Below, in pieces: positions 56,317 through 64,000 of a stretch of 64,000 bases of DNA. The notes beneath the pieces were generated by a model. It did no database searches and was not told the DNA's origin. It saw nothing but the letters and a program-made list of their open reading frames with translations. Made by a program: the position numbers and the translations under genes. The DNA is taken from assembly GCA_002104905.1 (NCBI GenBank), contig MCFE01000120.1, positions 97,999 through 161,998 on the forward strand. The letters are read 5' to 3'. Source of the DNA: Basidiobolus meristosporus CBS 931.73 (Eukaryota > Basidiobolomycota > Basidiobolomycetes > Basidiobolales > Basidiobolaceae). Position 1 is the first letter of the stretch. Each line of letters begins with the position of its first letter.

Positions 56317-57047
56317 TTAATGCTGGTGTATGTTGGAAAGCTTCTTGGCTATGATACTACCGATTTCAGCGATTGGTGTGGGCCTGTCCATTTGACGGTG
56401 TTGACAGTGAATATCGTACACCTCAATATCACCAAGAACGTGTGACTTTCACAGCTCTGCAGTGATCAGCGGGATGGCTTCGTGCTCGGGAATTGTAGCA
56501 CGAAAGAAGAGCACGTCGCTGCTAACGGTGAGTGGAGTAAAGTTCTTGACAAGCTTAAGATTATTTGTGATCACGCATTCGGTTTTTTCCCATAAATATT
56601 CACCCGCATTCGGCACACCAGAAGAGAGGTGCAAGCTTTCCTTTGGGTTTGATAGGGAAAAAAACCGAGTATGAGTCATGCGGATTATGGTCTAATTTAA
56701 GTAGGAGTTGCGCAAGTTCAGCAACTGTAGTTGCTTCAAATAGTATGCGCAATGGAAGCTCAGCAAGTAGTGTGGCGTGAATACAACTAGTCATTTGCAC
56801 TGCTAACAAGGAGTATCCGCCTAGTGCGAAGAAATTATCATGGCGACCGATTCGTTCGATATTCAGCAGCTCTGACCAGATTCCTGCTAGAGTGCACTCC
56901 ATTGCACCTTGCGAAGCCTCATATGCCTGAAGTGCGAAAGCATTATGGTGGGGGGATGGTAGTGCCTGCTGATCAATCTTGCTGTTAGGAGTTAGTGGCA
57001 GCTCATCTAAGCGCACAAAGGCAGATGGCGTCATGTATTCAGGTAGC
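56317..57047 (-). pseudogene. NRPS C-terminal relic: end of A domain, PCP, damaged thioesterase
   Basis: Minus-strand remnant of a non-ribosomal peptide synthetase terminus. It begins abruptly at KLPEYMTPSAFVRLDELPLT, the last motif of an adenylation domain. It continues through a peptidyl-carrier domain with the phosphopantetheine site DNFFALGGYSLLAVQ (Ser codon near 56812). It then enters the thioesterase linker KGKLAPLF. The body of the thioesterase, including its catalytic Ser region, is missing. The frame shifts near 56620 and picks up only the thioesterase end. There, a TGA at 56449-56451 replaces an expected Trp before HVLGDIEVYDIHCQH and PTPIAEIGSIIAKKL. The domain style resembles bacterial-type NRPS. 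It is non-functional: three losses (5' truncation, internal deletion with frameshift, nonsense codon). Confidence 0.85.
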
Positions 57048-57059
57048 TTAGGGTTAAGG
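57048..57059 (+). repeat. Telomere-like tract at the NRPS break
   Basis: TTAGGGTTAAGG on the plus strand directly abuts the truncated NRPS coding sequence (codon Leu of LPEYM). The following 108 bp (57060-57167) are AT-rich with no recognised feature. Confidence 0.6.
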
Positions 57060-57167
57060 TTCTAAATTCTGTTATTGAATCAGATTAAGTATTGTAATAC
57101 CATTTCAACTTGATTCAAGTTGAATAGTGCAAATTGCACAAAGTAGTTATATCTATAGTAATGTGAA

Positions 57168-57184
57168 GGTTAGGGTTAGGGGGG
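57168..57184 (+). repeat. Telomeric tract at the 3' edge of LINE copy 2
   Basis: GGTTAGGGTTAGGGGGG on the plus strand merges through its G run into the 3'-truncated LINE copy 2. Confidence 0.8.
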
Positions 57185-58010
57185 TAGCAAGAGGGGTAAG
57201 AATGATTTGTGAACAACATTAATGAGGGGAATATGTTAAGGATTGATATTCATCATAAAGGGAGTGTGCTGCTTCAGATATTGCTGCCAAAGGTCTGTCA
57301 AGTACTTAAGGTATGCCAGTTTGGGTTTTTCTGACTGCAGAATATAATGAGCAAACTTCTTGATTTCAGGATCTCCAAGTATAGCTCTCTAGCAGGAGCC
57401 AGGTGTAGTGCGGTGTGTTCTCTTCCAGGTGTCAATCAGTGGGTTGTTGCAGTGGTGAAGTCTGAGATATAATCTGGTTCTAAAGTAGAGAAGTCTGATC
57501 TTATATGGCATAAACCCAAAAGCACCAAGAATAGCATGTCTGTAGGGGCATTCAGGCAGATGAGGCACCAAGGAGGTAATACACTAGACTGCAAACTTGT
57601 CAAGCTTGGAGCAGTCTCTAGAAGTAAGAGAGAGAAGTGGTAAGCCAAATTTCAGGACAGGGAAGACAAACCGGTTGAGTAGAAGGAGGCAGCTGGGAGC
57701 TGAAGCTGTTGGAGGAATAACAGCCAGTAGCTTGTGGAGTGCTTGTCTTGCCAGGATAATTCTCTTCTTCAGGTGTGCTCCAGAGTCTAGTCCAGTAGGA
57801 GGGAAAGGAAAGCCAAGATATGTAGCAGAAACCTGAGCAGGTAGAGTGCAGTACTCCAAGCTGATAGGACAACCCAAAGGTACTGTTTTTGCAATTGAAA
57901 GATAGAGATTATTCTTCTGCAGATACTGGTGGATGGTCTGGGAGTCTTGTTGCACATTGGAGGAGGATATTCTGATGTCATCAGCAAAGAGGGTAGCCAG
58001 GCAGTCAGCT
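57181..58010 (-). mobile_element. LINE copy 2, truncated at both ends
   Basis: About 830 bp, closely similar to 58205-59035 of LINE copy 1. It covers the YADD-type RT motif (LFADDIRISSS) down to HIPLINVVHKSFL. It lacks everything 5' of the RT active site and the last 150 bp including the 3' hairpin. Small differences introduce stops (for example near 57390 and 57590). It is bordered on both sides by TTAGGG tracts. Confidence 0.9.
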
Positions 58011-58037
58011 GGGTTAGGGTTAGGGTTAGGGTTAGGG
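58011..58037 (+). repeat. Telomeric tract between LINE copies 2 and 1
   Basis: Four GGGTTA units followed by a G run, on the plus strand. They join the 5'-truncated end of LINE copy 2 to the 3' end of LINE copy 1 with no other sequence between them. Confidence 0.92.
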
Positions 58038-58075
58038 GGGAGACAGTCACCAACAGGTGAAATCTTTATTTCAGT
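58038..58075 (-). other. LINE copy 1 3' end: AATAAA signal, hairpin, C run
   Basis: On the element strand AAATAAAGATT is followed by the hairpin TCACCTGTTGGTGA (stem of 5 bp, loop of 4). GACTGTCTCCCC follows, then telomeric CCCTAA units. The same order occurs in LINE copy 3. It is a probable recognition structure for the element RT and a poly(A) signal. Confidence 0.7.
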
Positions 58076-58094
58076 TGAAACAAAGAAGCCAGCG

Positions 58095-60863
58095 CTACTG
58101 TTGTAGCTTTGATACAAGAGTGTGTAGCTGAGGGGAATTTGTAGGTAAGTTAATAAGAAGTGATGATAGTTCTTCAGTGCTCAAGACACTGTTCAGTGGG
58201 AAGGGGGGTAGCAAGAGAGGTAAGAATGACTTGTGAACAACATTAATGAGGGGAATGTGATAAGGATTGATATTCATCATAAAGGGAGTGTGCTGCTGCA
58301 GATATTGCTGCCAAAGGTCTGTCAAGTACTTCAGGTAGGCCAGCTTGGGTTTTTCTGACTGCAGAATAAATTCAGCAAACTTCTTGACTTCAGGATCTCC
58401 AAGAATAGTTCTCCAGCAGGAGCCAGGTGCTGTGTGGTGTGTTCTCTTCCAGGCCTTAATCAGTGGGTTGTTGCAGTTGTGAAGTCTGAGGTATAATCTG
58501 GTTCTAAGGTAGAGAAGTCTGATCTTATAGGGCATAAACCCAAAAGCACCAAGAATAGCATGTCTGTAGGGGCATTCAGGCAAATGAGGCACCAAGGAGG
58601 TAATGCACCATACTGCAAACTTGTCAAGCTTAGTGCAGTCTCTAGAAGTAAGAGAGAGAAGTGGTAAGCCAAATTCCAGGACAGGGAAGACAAACTGCTT
58701 GAGTAGAAGGAGGCAGCTGGGAGCTGAAGTTGTAGGAGGAGTAACAGCCAGTAGCTTGTGGAGTGCCTGTCTTGCTAGGATAATTCTCTTCTTGAGGTGT
58801 GCTCCAGAATCTAATCCAGTAGGAAGGAAAGGAAAGCCAAGATATGTTGCCGAAACCTGAGCAGGTAGAGTGGAGTTCTCCAAGTTGATGGGAGAGCCCA
58901 AAGGTACTGTCTTTGCAATGGAAAGCTGGAGATTATTCTTCTGCAGATACTGGTGGATGGTCTGGGAGTCTTGTTGCACATTGGAGGAGGATATTCTGAT
59001 GTCATCAGCAAAGAGAGTAACCAGGCAGTCAGCTGAGAGTCTTGGGAAATCATTCAGGAAGATGGCAAACAGTATAGGACCAAGCACAGAGCCTTGAACC
59101 ACTCCATTAGGAACTGAGAACACTGGTGATTGCTCACTTGGGTGCAGAATTTTTGCTTGTGGATCCAGAAACAGAGACCTGACAAGGAGGGTGAGAGAGG
59201 TACTGGAGAAGCATTGCAACTTGGACCAAAGCAGATTTCTGTCAACTGAATCAAAGGCCTTAGTAATATCAAACAGAACTGAGGGATACTTGCACTGGAG
59301 AGAGTGATCTTGGCTAAGTATGACTGCATATTCCAAGGAGAGGCCAGGAACAAAGCCAAACTGTGCAGGATGAAGCTTGAGGGAGTCAGAGTAGAGCTCC
59401 TGAGCAAGCAGAAGCTCAAACACCTTTCTGCAGGTGGGCAGCAGAGATATTGGCCTGTAGGAGCTAGGATCCAGGTGCTTTCCTTTACCCTTGTACAGTG
59501 GCAGAACATTTGCAAAGGACCATTCCTCAGGAGTAGAAAGCTGGGCTGAGCATTGCTGAAGCAGTGGAAGCAGAAGTGCAGACATGGCCTTGGTACTAGT
59601 CTTCAGAAGCTCATAAGAGATTGTGTCCACACCTGGAGCAGTAGAGTTGGGAAGCCTCTTGAGCACATTATGGATTCTCCTTTGATCAAGTGCAAGTGGG
59701 ATGGGCAGAGTCTTGAAGTCAGGATGAAAGCCAGGAGTTGAGTACTGCTTTGTAGAGAAGAAGATGTTAGCCAGCTGCTCTGTTGAAGGTAACTTCCTGG
59801 AAGAGGGCCTCATTGCCCTGTAGAGTCTTGATACTGTTCTTGTTATAGAGTTGGAAGATTGCAGAGGCAAGGAACTCATAATATGATCCCAGAGCTGAGT
59901 ATGCAGAGTGTGGTGAATTGCCTTGGAGTGGTGTATTGCTGTCAGGAGGAGTTTCTCTGTTTTTGGGTTAGGGAAACTCAGGTAGCTTTGTTGCAGGGCT
60001 GAAACAATGGATTCCCATTTTCTTGAGGTAACAGCAGTAGTCTTGCATGGCAGTGAGAGGGAGGCAGACACCAGAATCAGATGCTTCACAAAGAGCCAGG
60101 CATAGTTGAGATCATCTGGCAGAGAAAGCAGCAAACTGGCAAGCTTCAAGTAGTTCCCAAAGTCTTTCTTCTGATTCTTGGTAGCTTTGTGGGTGAGCAC
60201 AGTAAGTTTTGGCAGCTTCTTCTTCACAACTGGTTGCATAGAAAGGGACCAGGCTGGGTGGTCAGAGGCTCTCAAGGATCCTAGCTCAGCTCCAGAGAAT
60301 TGCTTAACTTCATTCACAAAGTAGAGGGCAGCAGCAGAAGGGCAGATCCAGTCAACACATCTTTTCTCAGATTGAGCACCTAGTGCTAGCAGATGGCTTT
60401 CTCTCAGGAAGTTCAGTAGGAATGTAGACCTTGGCTTCATTCTTGCAGTTAGAGTAGTCTTGTTCTCAGGATGGGGAATGTTGAGATCTCCAAGCAAGAT
60501 AATAGGTGTTGATATAGATTGCTGGTATTGCTGAACTTTCTGGCATATAACTTGCACTTCCTGAAGGGCAAGACTTGGAGGCAGATAGCAGAGCACCAGA
60601 CTGATAGTTGGCAACTGGAGAGCAGCACAGTAAGGGGAGTAAAGAGGAACACAGAGCTGAGGAGTATTGATGGTAGAAGAGATGAAGCAGATAGAGGAGG
60701 TATTCTTTGTTCTAGGAGTAGAAAAGCAATATAGATTAGTCAAAAGTATAGAGGGTGGCTGGACATCAATCAAACACAGGAGGGAAAATCTTGAAAGAAG
60801 TCTCTCTAGAGTTGGTCTTGATGGCTGTATGCTGTTGCAGTTAAGCAACAGAACTTCAGGTAG
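58095..60863 (-). CDS. LINE ORF2: AP-like endonuclease and reverse transcriptase
   Basis: A long frame, about 920 codons after the ORF1 stop. The endonuclease occupies about the first 225 residues. LLNCNSIQ corresponds to the N-terminal strand, ILLGDLNIPH is the GDxN motif, RCVDWICP follows, and RASDHPAW contains the catalytic SDH. RT motifs follow from about residue 395: NSTAPGVDTISYELLK, PLYKGKGKHLDPSSYRPISLL, LFDITKAFDSVDR, NGVVQGSVLGPILFAIFLND and LFADDIRIS. The C-terminus has a Trp/Cys-containing segment (GSCWRTILGDPEV). The endonuclease has no ATG ahead of it in this frame; the first ATG falls about 130 codons in. Translation must therefore come from readthrough of the ORF1 stop or a non-ATG start. 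No frame breaks are seen, so the enzyme is potentially active. Confidence 0.92.
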   Translation of the reverse strand, partial: LPEVLLLNCNSIQPSRPTLERLLSRFSLLCLIDVQPPSILLTNLYCFSTPRTKNTSSICFISSTINTPQLCVPLYSPYCAALQLPTISLVLCYLPPSLALQEVQVICQKVQQYQQSISTPIILLGDLNIPHPENKTTLTARMKPRSTFLLNFLRESHLLALGAQSEKRCVDWICPSAAALYFVNEVKQFSGAELGSLRASDHPAWSLSMQPVVKKKLPKLTVLTHKATKNQKKDFGNYLKLASLLLSLPDDLNYAWLFVKHLILVSASLSLPCKTTAVTSRKWESIVSALQQSYLSFPNPKTEKLLLTAIHHSKAIHHTLHTQLWDHIMSSLPLQSSNSITRTVSRLYRAMRPSSRKLPSTEQLANIFFSTKQYSTPGFHPDFKTLPIPLALDQRRIHNVLKRLPNSTAPGVDTISYELLKTSTKAMSALLLPLLQQCSAQLSTPEEWSFANVLPLYKGKGKHLDPSSYRPISLLPTCRKVFELLLAQELYSDSLKLHPAQFGFVPGLSLEYAVILSQDHSLQCKYPSVLFDITKAFDSVDRNLLWSKLQCFSSTSLTLLVRSLFLDPQAKILHPSEQSPVFSVPNGVVQGSVLGPILFAIFLNDFPRLSADCLVTLFADDIRISSSNVQQDSQTIHQYLQKNNLQLSIAKTVPLGSPINLENSTLPAQVSATYLGFPFLPTGLDSGAHLKKRIILARQALHKLLAVTPPTTSAPSCLLLLKQFVFPVLEFGLPLLSLTSRDCTKLDKFAVWCITSLVPHLPECPYRHAILGAFGFMPYKIRLLYLRTRLYLRLHNCNNPLIKAWKRTHHTAPGSCWRTILGDPEVKKFAEFILQSEKPKLAYLKYLTDLWQQYLQQHTPFMMNINPYHIPLINVVHKSFLPLLLPPFPLNSVLSTEELSSLLINLPTNSPQLHTLVSKLQQ

Positions 60864-60869
60864 TCAGGC
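60858..60869 (-). promoter_or_regulatory. Candidate stop-codon readthrough site, TGA CTA
   Basis: The element strand reads GCC TGA CTA CCT GAA, with TGA at 60866-60864. ORF1 and ORF2 are in the same frame across it. UGA followed by CUA is the best-documented high-readthrough stop context in eukaryotes. Confidence 0.65.
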
Positions 60870-62372
60870 AGAGGTTGTAGCTTCTTCAGAGGCAGCATTG
60901 ACAATGTGACCTGCAGAGTCCCAGAGCTCTTCAAATGGTGCATCACTTAAGTCAGCAAGGAGGGAAATGGCATGGTTCTTGAGGAAGTATGCCACATCAT
61001 AGGAGGGGGCTTGTCTCTTGATGGCAGCAAAGAAAGACAGAATGGCAACATGGGCTGGAGGCTTGTTGAACAGTAGAGAGTCAGAGGATTCAGATTCTTC
61101 AGGCACTATCTTGAAGTCAGTTTTCAGCCAGTTAAGGTTCTTCTCCACAAAGGCAACAAATGGGTCAGCAATGTTTTGGTCTAGGATAACCTCCAGAATC
61201 TTCCCTTTTCTCCAGGCCAGGTTGACAATTCTTGAGAGCTGAATATTGCATGCCTTGAGTGCTCTCCTGATGTTGGAAATGGGAGTCCAGGGAACTTGCT
61301 TCAAGTACACCACAGTCCAGGTAGAAGCTGGTGGTAGGTTTGCTGGGGGCTTGTAAGTTCTTCTGTGTGGCAATGGAGCTGCAGTAGTCAGATTGGAGTC
61401 CACATTCTCAGTAGAGGGTTTTCTTGATGTGTCTTGCTGAATGGTACTGGAGCTGGATGTGCTGATAATTCTTGCTAGAACCTTGCCTGCATAAGTCTGA
61501 GGTATAGCTGAGGTGACTCTAGAGGTGGTGGCAGCTGGTGCAGGTGGAGAGGCAGAAACTGAAGCTGGAACTGAGGTCACCTGGGAGAAGGCAGTAGAAG
61601 CAGGTTTTCTGGGAGGAACAGAGTTCACTATCCAGTTGTTCTGTAAAACACTGGAGTAGCTTTTCAGTGGAACAGGATCTTGCTCTTGAACAGGAACAGA
61701 AGCAGGAGGCTGGGGCTGAGCAGTAGTGGTAAGGCAGTGGCACTCCAAGGAAGCTTTTTGCAAGGCATCTCTGGCAGTCTTCAGGGCAGTATTAGCTTCA
61801 TTCTTGAGCTTCTTGCATTGGGCATCCAGTCTCTTGTTTTCAATAGCCAGGGCAGTATTGGCAGCCTCTAAATCAGCAATTCTCTTCTCAATTGCAAGGA
61901 ATCTCTGAAGAAATGCATCAGTAGAAGTGCCGGCATCTGGGAGAGCAGTGGCAGGAATAGAGTCCATTGACAGTGGGCTTCTTGAAGGCAAGGAAAGTGG
62001 ACTGGCAGATTCAGGCACAAAAGGAGATATCCTGGCAGGAGGAGAAGGAGTATCCAAGGCAGTAACAGAGGCAATTCTTGTTGGTGAAGCAGCAGCAGGG
62101 GAGGCAAGCCTGTTCAGAAACTGGGCAGGAGAGAGTGCTTGAGGAGAGGGAGTCTTCAGCTTGCCAAGCATGTCTTCCATCAGAGTGATACCAATATTCC
62201 TGGTGCATTTGCAGAGAAAAGTAAGCTTCCTGAGTCTGCCAGCTCTTCCATTCCTTCTGATGGTTCCTTTGTTTCCACAGTTGGGGCAAGAAATCTTCTT
62301 GACAGACTTGTCAAAGCAATCAAGAACCTTCCTTTCAGGTATAGTGGGCTCCTGTTGAGGTTTTGGTGGCAT
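60864..62372 (-). CDS. LINE ORF1: zinc-ribbon and coiled-coil RNA/DNA-binding protein
   Basis: ORF1 of the LINE has 502 residues from the ATG at 62372 (MPPKPQQEPTIP). A transposase-like zinc ribbon lies at about residues 25-55: CPNCGNKGTIRRNGRAG followed by FLCKC. A Ser/Pro-rich linker comes next. A coiled coil is at about residues 155-205 (LAIEKRIADLEAANTALAIE, LDAQCKKLKNEA). A Pro/Ser-rich region and a C-terminal domain beginning STWTVVYLKQVPWTPISNIR follow. That last domain resembles an RRM-like or gag-like fold of other LINE ORF1 proteins. The product presumably packages the element RNA and may recognise the telomere. It ends at the TGA that is in frame with ORF2. Confidence 0.85.
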   Translation of the reverse strand: MPPKPQQEPTIPERKVLDCFDKSVKKISCPNCGNKGTIRRNGRAGRLRKLTFLCKCTRNIGITLMEDMLGKLKTPSPQALSPAQFLNRLASPAAASPTRIASVTALDTPSPPARISPFVPESASPLSLPSRSPLSMDSIPATALPDAGTSTDAFLQRFLAIEKRIADLEAANTALAIENKRLDAQCKKLKNEANTALKTARDALQKASLECHCLTTTAQPQPPASVPVQEQDPVPLKSYSSVLQNNWIVNSVPPRKPASTAFSQVTSVPASVSASPPAPAATTSRVTSAIPQTYAGKVLARIISTSSSSTIQQDTSRKPSTENVDSNLTTAAPLPHRRTYKPPANLPPASTWTVVYLKQVPWTPISNIRRALKACNIQLSRIVNLAWRKGKILEVILDQNIADPFVAFVEKNLNWLKTDFKIVPEESESSDSLLFNKPPAHVAILSFFAAIKRQAPSYDVAYFLKNHAISLLADLSDAPFEELWDSAGHIVNAASEEATTSA

Positions 62373-62441
62373 ATCCAGAGTTTCAGCTTCAAATTTCAAT
62401 TTTTGAGATTTTTGGGTGATTTTTGATGGGCGGGATCAAAA

Positions 62442-62455
62442 TTAGGGTTAGGGTT
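62442..62455 (+). repeat. Telomeric tract at the 5' end of LINE copy 1
   Basis: TTAGGGTTAGGGTT on the plus strand immediately follows the LINE 5' end (GGGCGGGATCAAAA). Confidence 0.85.
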
Positions 62456-62497
62456 GCGTGCTGTGACTGCTTTTTACGATCGCAAGGTCAGAACCTA

Positions 62498-62660
62498 GGA
62501 AAAAATAAAAATAGTTAGTAAAGGTGATTTAATGGATGGATGGATGGATTTGGAGTCAGATTCAATCAAAAAATCAAATCGTTGACTAATTTAAAGAGGA
62601 AAAAATAAAAATAGTTAGTAAAGGTGATTTAAAAAAATAAAAATAGTTAGTAAAGGTTAG
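62498..62660 (+). repeat. Three copies of a roughly 30-bp AT-rich repeat
   Basis: AAAAATAAAAATAGTTAGTA plus AAGGT occurs at about 62500-62526, 62600-62626 and 62632-62656. The first two continue GATTT; the third continues into TTAGGG. A GGAT microsatellite (62533-62548) lies between the first two copies. Confidence 0.8.
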
Positions 62661-62670
62661 GGTAGGGGAG
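62655..62670 (+). repeat. Degenerate telomeric tract at the 3' end of LINE copy 3
   Basis: GGTTAGGGTAGGGGAG on the plus strand borders the 3' end of LINE copy 3. Confidence 0.7.
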
Positions 62671-62676
62671 GGAAAG

Positions 62677-62704
62677 TCACCAAGTTGGTGAAATCTTTAT
62701 TTGG
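62677..62704 (-). other. LINE copy 3 3' end hairpin
   Basis: The element strand has AAATAAAGATT followed by TCACCAACTTGGTGA, a perfect 7-bp stem around one base. This is the counterpart of the copy 1 hairpin, with the same neighbouring bases. Confidence 0.7.
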
Positions 62705-62749
62705 GTTAAGAACTAATCTAAGTACAAATAAAGAAGCCAATTAAGAGGT

Positions 62750-64000
62750 CTAGAACCTCTCTAATAAGTAATGTAATTTATGTTTTGTTTCATCTCTAAT
62801 GTTTGTTTCAATAAAGTAAAGCTCATCAGGGGTAAATATAAAATTCAGGGGTTTTGGGGGAAGTACAAATTGTAGATGTTTCTGATCAATATAATCCAAG
62901 ACTGGAACCCAGCCTGGAATTAGGTGTAGTAGGAAAGGTGTGTGAACTTGTAAGTAGCTCTGCCACATAGATCTTAGATGGTCCTGAGCCAGTAGTCTTG
63001 GTTTCTCAGCTTTTTGAAGTTTTGAAGCAAGCTCTGTTACTACAGCAGAGCCAACCAGGGTGTGCCAGCAAGAAGATTTCAGGGAGGAGTTAGATTGAAG
63101 CCATTGTTTGATGGAGGGGTTATGTGATTTCTGAAGTTTGACTAGGAAGGAAGCACGGAGATAGATCATTCGGATTTGGTATGGGTAGAACCCAAAAACT
63201 CCATTAGTTGCATGGATATAGGGAGATACTGGAAGATAAGGTACCAAGGATCTGATACACTGATGGAGAAATTTATCCAGGCGGTGAAGTTCTCTGGAGG
63301 TTAGGGGTATAATGTGGAGACCAAATTCAAGTACTGGCAGTACATACTGCTTCAGAAGTATAGGGATCTTTTGAATTGGAGTGTCTGGAGTGACTACTAC
63401 CAGAAGCTTTTTGAGAGCCTGTTGGGCAAGATGGATCCTATTATTCAGGTGGAGCTTTGAGTCAATCCCATGTTGACAAAATGGCAGACCTAGATATATT
63501 GCAGTTTGTTGTGGCAGAATGCTAGTGGTCTGTATAGTTGTAGTGCACCCAATTGGGACTGTCTTGGAAATTGAGAGTGAGAGGTTGTTGGCAGCCAAGT
63601 ACTTCTCAATGATGGCAGTGTCTGCTATGGGATTAGGAGTAGCAATCTTGATATCATCCGCATAGAGAGTTAGTAGTGGATAGGGAGAGTCTGGTGAGGG
63701 GCCTTTTGGAAATAAAGGAAAGTTGTGTAGGAATATCACAAATAGTAAGGGACCTAGTACAGATCCTTGGACTACTCCATTTGGAACCTCATAAGTCTCT
63801 GATGTACAACTTGGATGCAAAATTTTGGCTGAGTTCTCACAAAATAGAGAACGTACAAGAAGGGTCATTGGTAGTGTGGTAACTGCTAATAGCTTTCTCC
63901 AAAGCAGAGCTCTGTCCACAGAGTCAAAGGCTTTAGTAATGTCAAACAGAATGGTTGGCAATGAGAATTGAAGTGAATGATCATGGCTTAGCACTACAGC
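62750..64000 (-). CDS. LINE copy 3 ORF2, C-terminal part (partial)
   Basis: Reverse-transcriptase fragment of about 415 residues, open to the window edge. Motifs are LFDITKAFDSVDRALLW, NGVVQGSVLGPLLFVIFLHN and LYADDIKIA (standard YADD), then a long C-terminal region including GFYPYQIRMIYLRASFL and SSCWHTLVGSAVV that parallels copy 1. There are no frame breaks in the visible part. The endonuclease and ORF1 lie outside the window. Confidence 0.92.
   Translation of the reverse strand, partial: AVVLSHDHSLQFSLPTILFDITKAFDSVDRALLWRKLLAVTTLPMTLLVRSLFCENSAKILHPSCTSETYEVPNGVVQGSVLGPLLFVIFLHNFPLFPKGPSPDSPYPLLTLYADDIKIATPNPIADTAIIEKYLAANNLSLSISKTVPIGCTTTIQTTSILPQQTAIYLGLPFCQHGIDSKLHLNNRIHLAQQALKKLLVVVTPDTPIQKIPILLKQYVLPVLEFGLHIIPLTSRELHRLDKFLHQCIRSLVPYLPVSPYIHATNGVFGFYPYQIRMIYLRASFLVKLQKSHNPSIKQWLQSNSSLKSSCWHTLVGSAVVTELASKLQKAEKPRLLAQDHLRSMWQSYLQVHTPFLLHLIPGWVPVLDYIDQKHLQFVLPPKPLNFIFTPDELYFIETNIRDETKHKLHYLLERF

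Follow-up and report, generated by a model that had tools for sequence, protein, structure and literature searches.

In the 89-Mb, 1,311-contig assembly of Basidiobolus meristosporus CBS 931.73, the terminal 64,000 b of contig C225 (161,998 b), hereafter the window, end in copies of long interspersed nuclear elements (LINEs). From an analysis extended to the whole assembly, these copies likely belong to a set of recently active retrotransposons lacking long terminal repeats (LTRs), made up of two LINE families, A and B, and a short non-autonomous partner, which add themselves to chromosome ends and lie there in tandem with the 3' end inward. The data suggest that the elements were added onto worn or broken ends. 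The original prediction, made from the window sequence alone, had proposed a telomere-targeting array of tandem LINEs joined by TTAGGG tracts. Its three LINE copies in the same orientation were recovered, all on the minus strand between positions 57170 and 64000. The motif (TTAGGG)2 was matched five times in the window, where shuffled sequences lead one to expect 0.01 matches; three of the five overlap within a single tract.

The location of LINE A was analysed with an exact signature of 27 bases from its 3' end, which gave 646 matches in the genome (601 forward, 45 reverse), 100 of which were listed by place. All 38 listed places on contigs longer than 50 kb (36, plus two on C91) are no farther than 18.3 kb from the contig end faced by the 5' end of the LINE. 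Other parts of the element follow the same rule. For the second open reading frame (ORF2), 49 copies were scored from 1,387 first-look candidates; of the 40 on contigs above 50 kb, 39 are no more than 7.9 kb away from the faced end. For the 5' untranslated region (UTR), 40 copies were scored from 78 candidates, 33 of them on contigs of known size, and all 26 on large contigs are no more than 6.3 kb away. Reading contigs C1 and C2 to the end showed LINE copies followed by a (TTAGGG)n telomere. The terminal tracts measure 213 b in C1, 196 b in C2, 247 b in C21 and 221 b in C22. The right edge of the window is the end of C225 itself, inside LINE copy 3, and the telomere is not assembled on that side. 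Of the original interpretation, the restriction to chromosome ends with the 5' end outward is supported, as is the presence of telomeres, found beyond the arrays on other contigs.

Contigs breaking at repeats could place any repeat at a contig end, and it is true that C225 ends inside a LINE copy and that many of the carrier contigs are short. Such an artefact is nevertheless very improbable as an explanation, in view of the strict polarity and of the telomeres lying outside the arrays. The control was a repeat of LTR-like type, of which the assembly contains 2,287 exact copies (1,104 forward, 1,183 reverse). It proved to be interior and equally distributed on both strands: by the same rule, 8 of its 44 listed places on contigs above 50 kb of known size lie within 20 kb, and 12 of 44 lie within 20 kb of either end.

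Two further observations concern the contigs as such. In almost all cases their orientation places the telomere on the right, (TTAGGG)3 being found 8,002 times forward and 103 times reverse in the whole assembly. Contigs C291 (160,813 b) and C1091 (180,151 b) display mirrored LINE arrays near both ends and are candidates for whole small chromosomes.

Short telomeric tracts mark the inner, 3' side of the elements. The TTAGGG flank proposed for the LINE 3' ends was confirmed, as TTAGG within 10 b, for 431 of the 646 LINE A ends genome-wide. Two repeats were counted at about 100 ends and three at no more than 13, both upper figures as the search patterns were slightly looser. Among 98 distinct family-A junctions (two without G-run, in L029 and L066, were left out of this table), 92 have no more than 9 nt of telomeric sequence ahead of the G-run, and the length distribution peaks at 3 nt (TTAGGG; 22 junctions) and 9 nt (TTAGGGTTAGGG; 13 junctions). 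When all families were considered, 131 of 141 tracts did not exceed 9 nt and the longest reached 36 nt. The longest family-A tract, with 24 nt, is the one at position 58012, so that TTAGGG appears more abundant in the window than it usually is. Immediately ahead of the tracts stands either host sequence or sequence of other elements. The G-run itself varies between 3 and 12 bases, which favours a slippery pairing of the C-run of the RNA with GGG. In 101 junctions, the 20 nt that precede the 3' signature never contain a run of five T, so there is no long poly(A). With mostly zero to two repeats and no such run, the junctions fit an addition to bare or nearly bare ends in the manner of HeT-A, telomerase capping the new ends afterwards.

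The same tracts bear on the TRAS/SART type of insertion, one of the precedents named in the original prediction, whereby the endonuclease would cut the telomere array, the element would insert and the inner repeats would later shrink to one or two. This is unlikely here, as three or more repeats occur at no more than 13 of 646 junctions despite terminal tracts of 196–247 b, poly(A) is absent from the junctions, and the position of the catalytic Glu of the endonuclease is occupied by Asp. In addition, SART1 is described as requiring three repeats, avoiding the first two and depending on poly(A) (PMC7265360). Insertion into repeat arrays is therefore not supported.

LINE A copy 2 of the window has both ORF1 and ORF2 open. 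A CxxC...CxC motif was recognised by eye near the N-terminus of ORF1, followed by a coiled-coil-like middle part. Its sequence is as distinct as proposed earlier, with matches confined to Basidiobolus ranarum and further contigs. The UGA stop of ORF1 is followed by CUA and ORF2 continues in frame (window 60861-60866 and seven distinct copies), while no AUG is present ahead of residue 142 of ORF2. From these sequence features, ORF2 is probably translated by readthrough of the UGA stop codon. An APE-type endonuclease fold spans ORF2 residues 1–211, and the reverse transcriptase (RT) matches LINE-1 ORF2p at E 2.3e-12. The catalytic Glu position corresponds to Asp33; it is Asp in all three family members covering it and Glu in all ten distant rows of the comparison. 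Recent activity, as predicted, is indicated by the ORF2 copies, of which 47 of the 49 scored are uninterrupted and 98–100% identical.

The 5' UTR of LINE A contains CCCTAACCCTAA, found in 20 of 20 copies examined as well as in L021, L039, L073 and L074, perhaps a candidate site for a transcription factor binding telomere repeats. On the plus strand of the window it reads as the tract at 62442-62453, which had been taken for a junction. In all these copies and in the window the same 5' UTR sequence continues beyond it. That a tract could belong to the LINE itself, raised earlier as an objection to telomere targeting, is hence true of this one cited tract only.

The partner element is about 530 b long (sequence examined in L037 and L030), and 220 exact matches to its head signature were obtained genome-wide. 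It occupies the same arrays, and on large contigs of known size its 32 listed copies are all within 17.9 kb of the faced end. The partner, both LINEs and two more families have a common 3' end with an AATAAAG motif, a small hairpin, a C-run and AAAGAAGCCA. Compared with shuffled sequences, folding of the hairpin gave z scores of -2.8 for LINE A and -2.0 for LINE B, and weaker ones (-1.0 to -1.6) for the other three families. Motifs resembling a B-box and an A-box were seen by eye in the partner head, in which no tRNA was called by ARAGORN or Rfam.

A mechanism of end addition can be proposed from these features. The ORF1 and ORF2 proteins would bind the 3' block of the RNA (AAUAAAG, hairpin and C-run), and, at a chromosome end bearing zero to two TTAGGG repeats, the C-rich RNA end would pair with the G-rich 3' strand. 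The RT would then extend the chromosome 3' end and yield a copy, often 5'-truncated, and telomerase would later cap the new outer end. The primer would accordingly be the chromosome's own 3' end instead of a cut made by the element endonuclease; the geometry of the junctions agrees with the earlier proposal that the G-rich strand is the primer strand. The genome of B. meristosporus has a TERT-like gene: two stretches on C880 match the telomerase RNA-binding domain, both above the cut-off, and an RT motif was found nearby by eye.

The one or two repeats at the junctions may derive from prior telomerase addition, from a remnant of erosion or from copying of the LINE RNA tail. Among 45 tracts starting exactly with TTAGGG, 27 are preceded by C, 16 by T and 2 by A, an apparent excess of C, with G excluded by definition. 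As C is the only base unable to pair with a CCCUAA template, C-ending primers starting at a fixed template position are a prediction of template-directed addition. Tracts starting with TTAGGG right after C are compatible with such addition by either telomerase or the LINE RT. It is conceivable, although rather doubtful, that the LINE itself writes the junction repeats, its RNA ending in one or two CCCUAA units as a telomerase-like template, from which the RT would lay TTAGGG on broken ends before continuing into its own 3' UTR. If true, the templating LINE and its short partner would represent a self-templating chromosome-healing system alongside telomerase.

Several observations weigh against end addition as the common origin of the arrays. 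The TTAGGG flank failed at 215 of the 646 LINE A 3' ends, where no TTAGG was found within 10 b; those examined carry a partial unit (TAGGG, AGGG), an altered repeat or a bare G-run. On contigs shorter than 20 kb, 53 of 62 listed LINE A places are closer to the faced end and 9 to the other one, four of the latter being on the reverse strand (C27, C217 twice and C284). On large contigs, three copies deviate from the rule of location or polarity: a reversed LINE A copy 2.9 kb from the right end (C355:154755), an ORF2, likewise reversed and containing one stop, 10 kb from the right end of its contig (C726:56456), and an interior LINE A copy 98 kb into a contig of 218 kb (C558:97937). The interior copy adjoins TTAGGGTTAGGG and a sequence also present in the terminal array of C130, which makes a fusion, an inversion or a misassembly plausible. 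One of the TERT stretches on C880 contains an in-frame TAG, due to an intron or a defect. The endonuclease fold has been retained, and Asp might still bind the metal. Finally, LINE 3'-end pieces are equally spaced at C2:259993-260259 (120 b) and C324:150698-151305 (283 b), which suggests that some arrays arose by tandem amplification and not by retrotransposition.

These spacings, together with flanks shared among several junctions and the break-induced repair described at MoTeR arrays (PMC7367193), would agree with arrays growing mainly via recombination among chromosome ends (break-induced replication or tandem amplification), with retrotransposition being minor or past. Such an origin is considered improbable, since the 98 distinct family-A junctions have many different flanks, the truncation points are many and different, and ORF2 is intact in nearly all scored copies. 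Addition of the elements to chromosome ends is thus preferred.

The features of the window are given in the table. Two of the four tracts cited in the original prediction, those at 58012-58040 (LINE A) and 62657-62672 (LINE B), are indeed 3'-end junctions. Besides the tract within the 5' UTR, the one at 57170-57184 does not lie at a LINE 3' end, as copy 1 starts about 160 b inside the element at a G-run, and the pattern joined to TTAGG there is unique in the genome. The junction at 57048-57059 had been overlooked. It cuts a nonribosomal peptide synthetase (NRPS) gene fragment, which is truncated on its right (upstream) side at a C followed by TTAGGGTTAAGG; here the host sequence stops abruptly and the array starts. 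A sequence resembling the short piece that follows was found by eye in the array of contig C90 (L081).

Table. Features at the right end of the window (positions in the 64,000-b stretch)
Feature	Positions	Strand	Basis
NRPS gene fragment: adenylation-domain end and carrier domain	56600..57047	-	PF00550 E 1.8e-12; adenylation-domain end motif by eye from translation
Junction tract TTAGGGTTAAGG, host gene to array	57048..57059	+	sequence
Short piece of another array element	57060..57169	- (assumed from TTAGGG junction)	by eye
TTAGGGTTAGGGGGG joined to internal G-run of LINE A	57170..57184	+	exact pattern unique in genome
LINE A copy 1, 5'-truncated, about 160 b of 3' end missing	57185..58011	-	92% identity to copy 2 over 300 b
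Junction tract GG(TTAGGG)4GGG ahead of true 3' end of LINE A copy 2	58012..58040	+	sequence
LINE A copy 2, 3' end through 5' UTR	58038..62656	-	sequence, ORFs, copy comparison
3' block of RNA (AAUAAAG, hairpin, C-run), common to five families	58038..58080	-	family comparison, folding
LINE A ORF2, 922 aa: APE-type endonuclease fold and RT	58095..60863	-	RVT_1 E 1.5e-24
LINE A ORF1, 502 aa counted from first ATG	60864..62372	-	translation
(TTAGGG)2 within LINE A 5' UTR (CCCTAACCCTAA on sense strand)	62442..62453	+	element copies compared
Junction tract TTAGGGTAGGGG plus first bases of LINE B 3' end	62657..62672	+	sequence
LINE B (copy 3): 3' UTR and C-terminal part of ORF2, 416 aa, open to contig end	62669..64000	-	RVT_1 E 4.7e-13

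At the other side of the window, positions 1-27000 are a dense nest of dispersed repeats, including an LTR-like repeat beginning with TGTTGTAAGAGTCTTGG (2,287 exact 27-mer copies genome-wide).

No report of an APE-type two-ORF telomeric LINE in Basidiobolus, of its partner or of junctions with nearly bare ends was found in open PMC papers. As far as the literature searched shows, this family, its partner and junctions indicating nearly bare ends are new. B. meristosporus offers in one organism the possibility to ask whether broken chromosome ends are shared by LINEs and telomerase or contested between them, and whether a LINE RNA tail can template telomere repeats.

Telomere-associated LINEs are known from insects, fungi, Giardia, Chlorella and a lizard (PMC10088271). 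Among the fungal ones, MoTeR1 of Magnaporthe/Pyricularia oryzae and FoTeR of Fusarium oxysporum are described as tandem arrays with the 5' end outward and telomere repeats on the 3' side (PMC12857005, PMC7367193). Each has a single large ORF that encodes an RT and a restriction-enzyme-like endonuclease, they belong to a clade with CRE/SLACS, and the 3' tracts of FoTeR count about 3–8 repeats (PMC12857005). LINE A resembles them in having its 5' end toward the chromosome terminus (38 of 38 listed 3' ends on contigs above 50 kb), but differs in its two ORFs, its N-terminal APE-type domain and its zero to two repeats, and a MoTeR-like reading, one of the precedents named earlier, is not supported. 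MoTeR and FoTeR, with their restriction-enzyme-like endonuclease, are elements of Ascomycota, whereas the APE-type LINE of Basidiobolus occurs in an early-branching fungal lineage and in hundreds of copies. TRAS and SART of Bombyx mori share with LINE A the two ORFs, an ORF2 with APE-type endonuclease and RT, and the location at telomeres; they insert inside repeat arrays, SART1 with a need for three repeats and poly(A) (PMC7265360), whereas LINE A probably joins nearly bare ends and shows no poly(A).

Endonuclease-deficient Penelope-like elements (Athena and relatives) also show short telomere repeats at their junctions, where the G-rich 3' end primes. Their RT is of a different type and they have no endonuclease, whereas LINE A keeps an endonuclease-fold domain and its RT has a LINE-1-like match. 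HeT-A, TART and TAHRE of Drosophila lie at chromosome ends with the 3' end inward and, like LINE A, form tandem arrays added to these ends. They take the place of telomerase repeats, which Drosophila is not known to have; B. meristosporus, in contrast, retains (TTAGGG)n ends and a predicted TERT-like gene.
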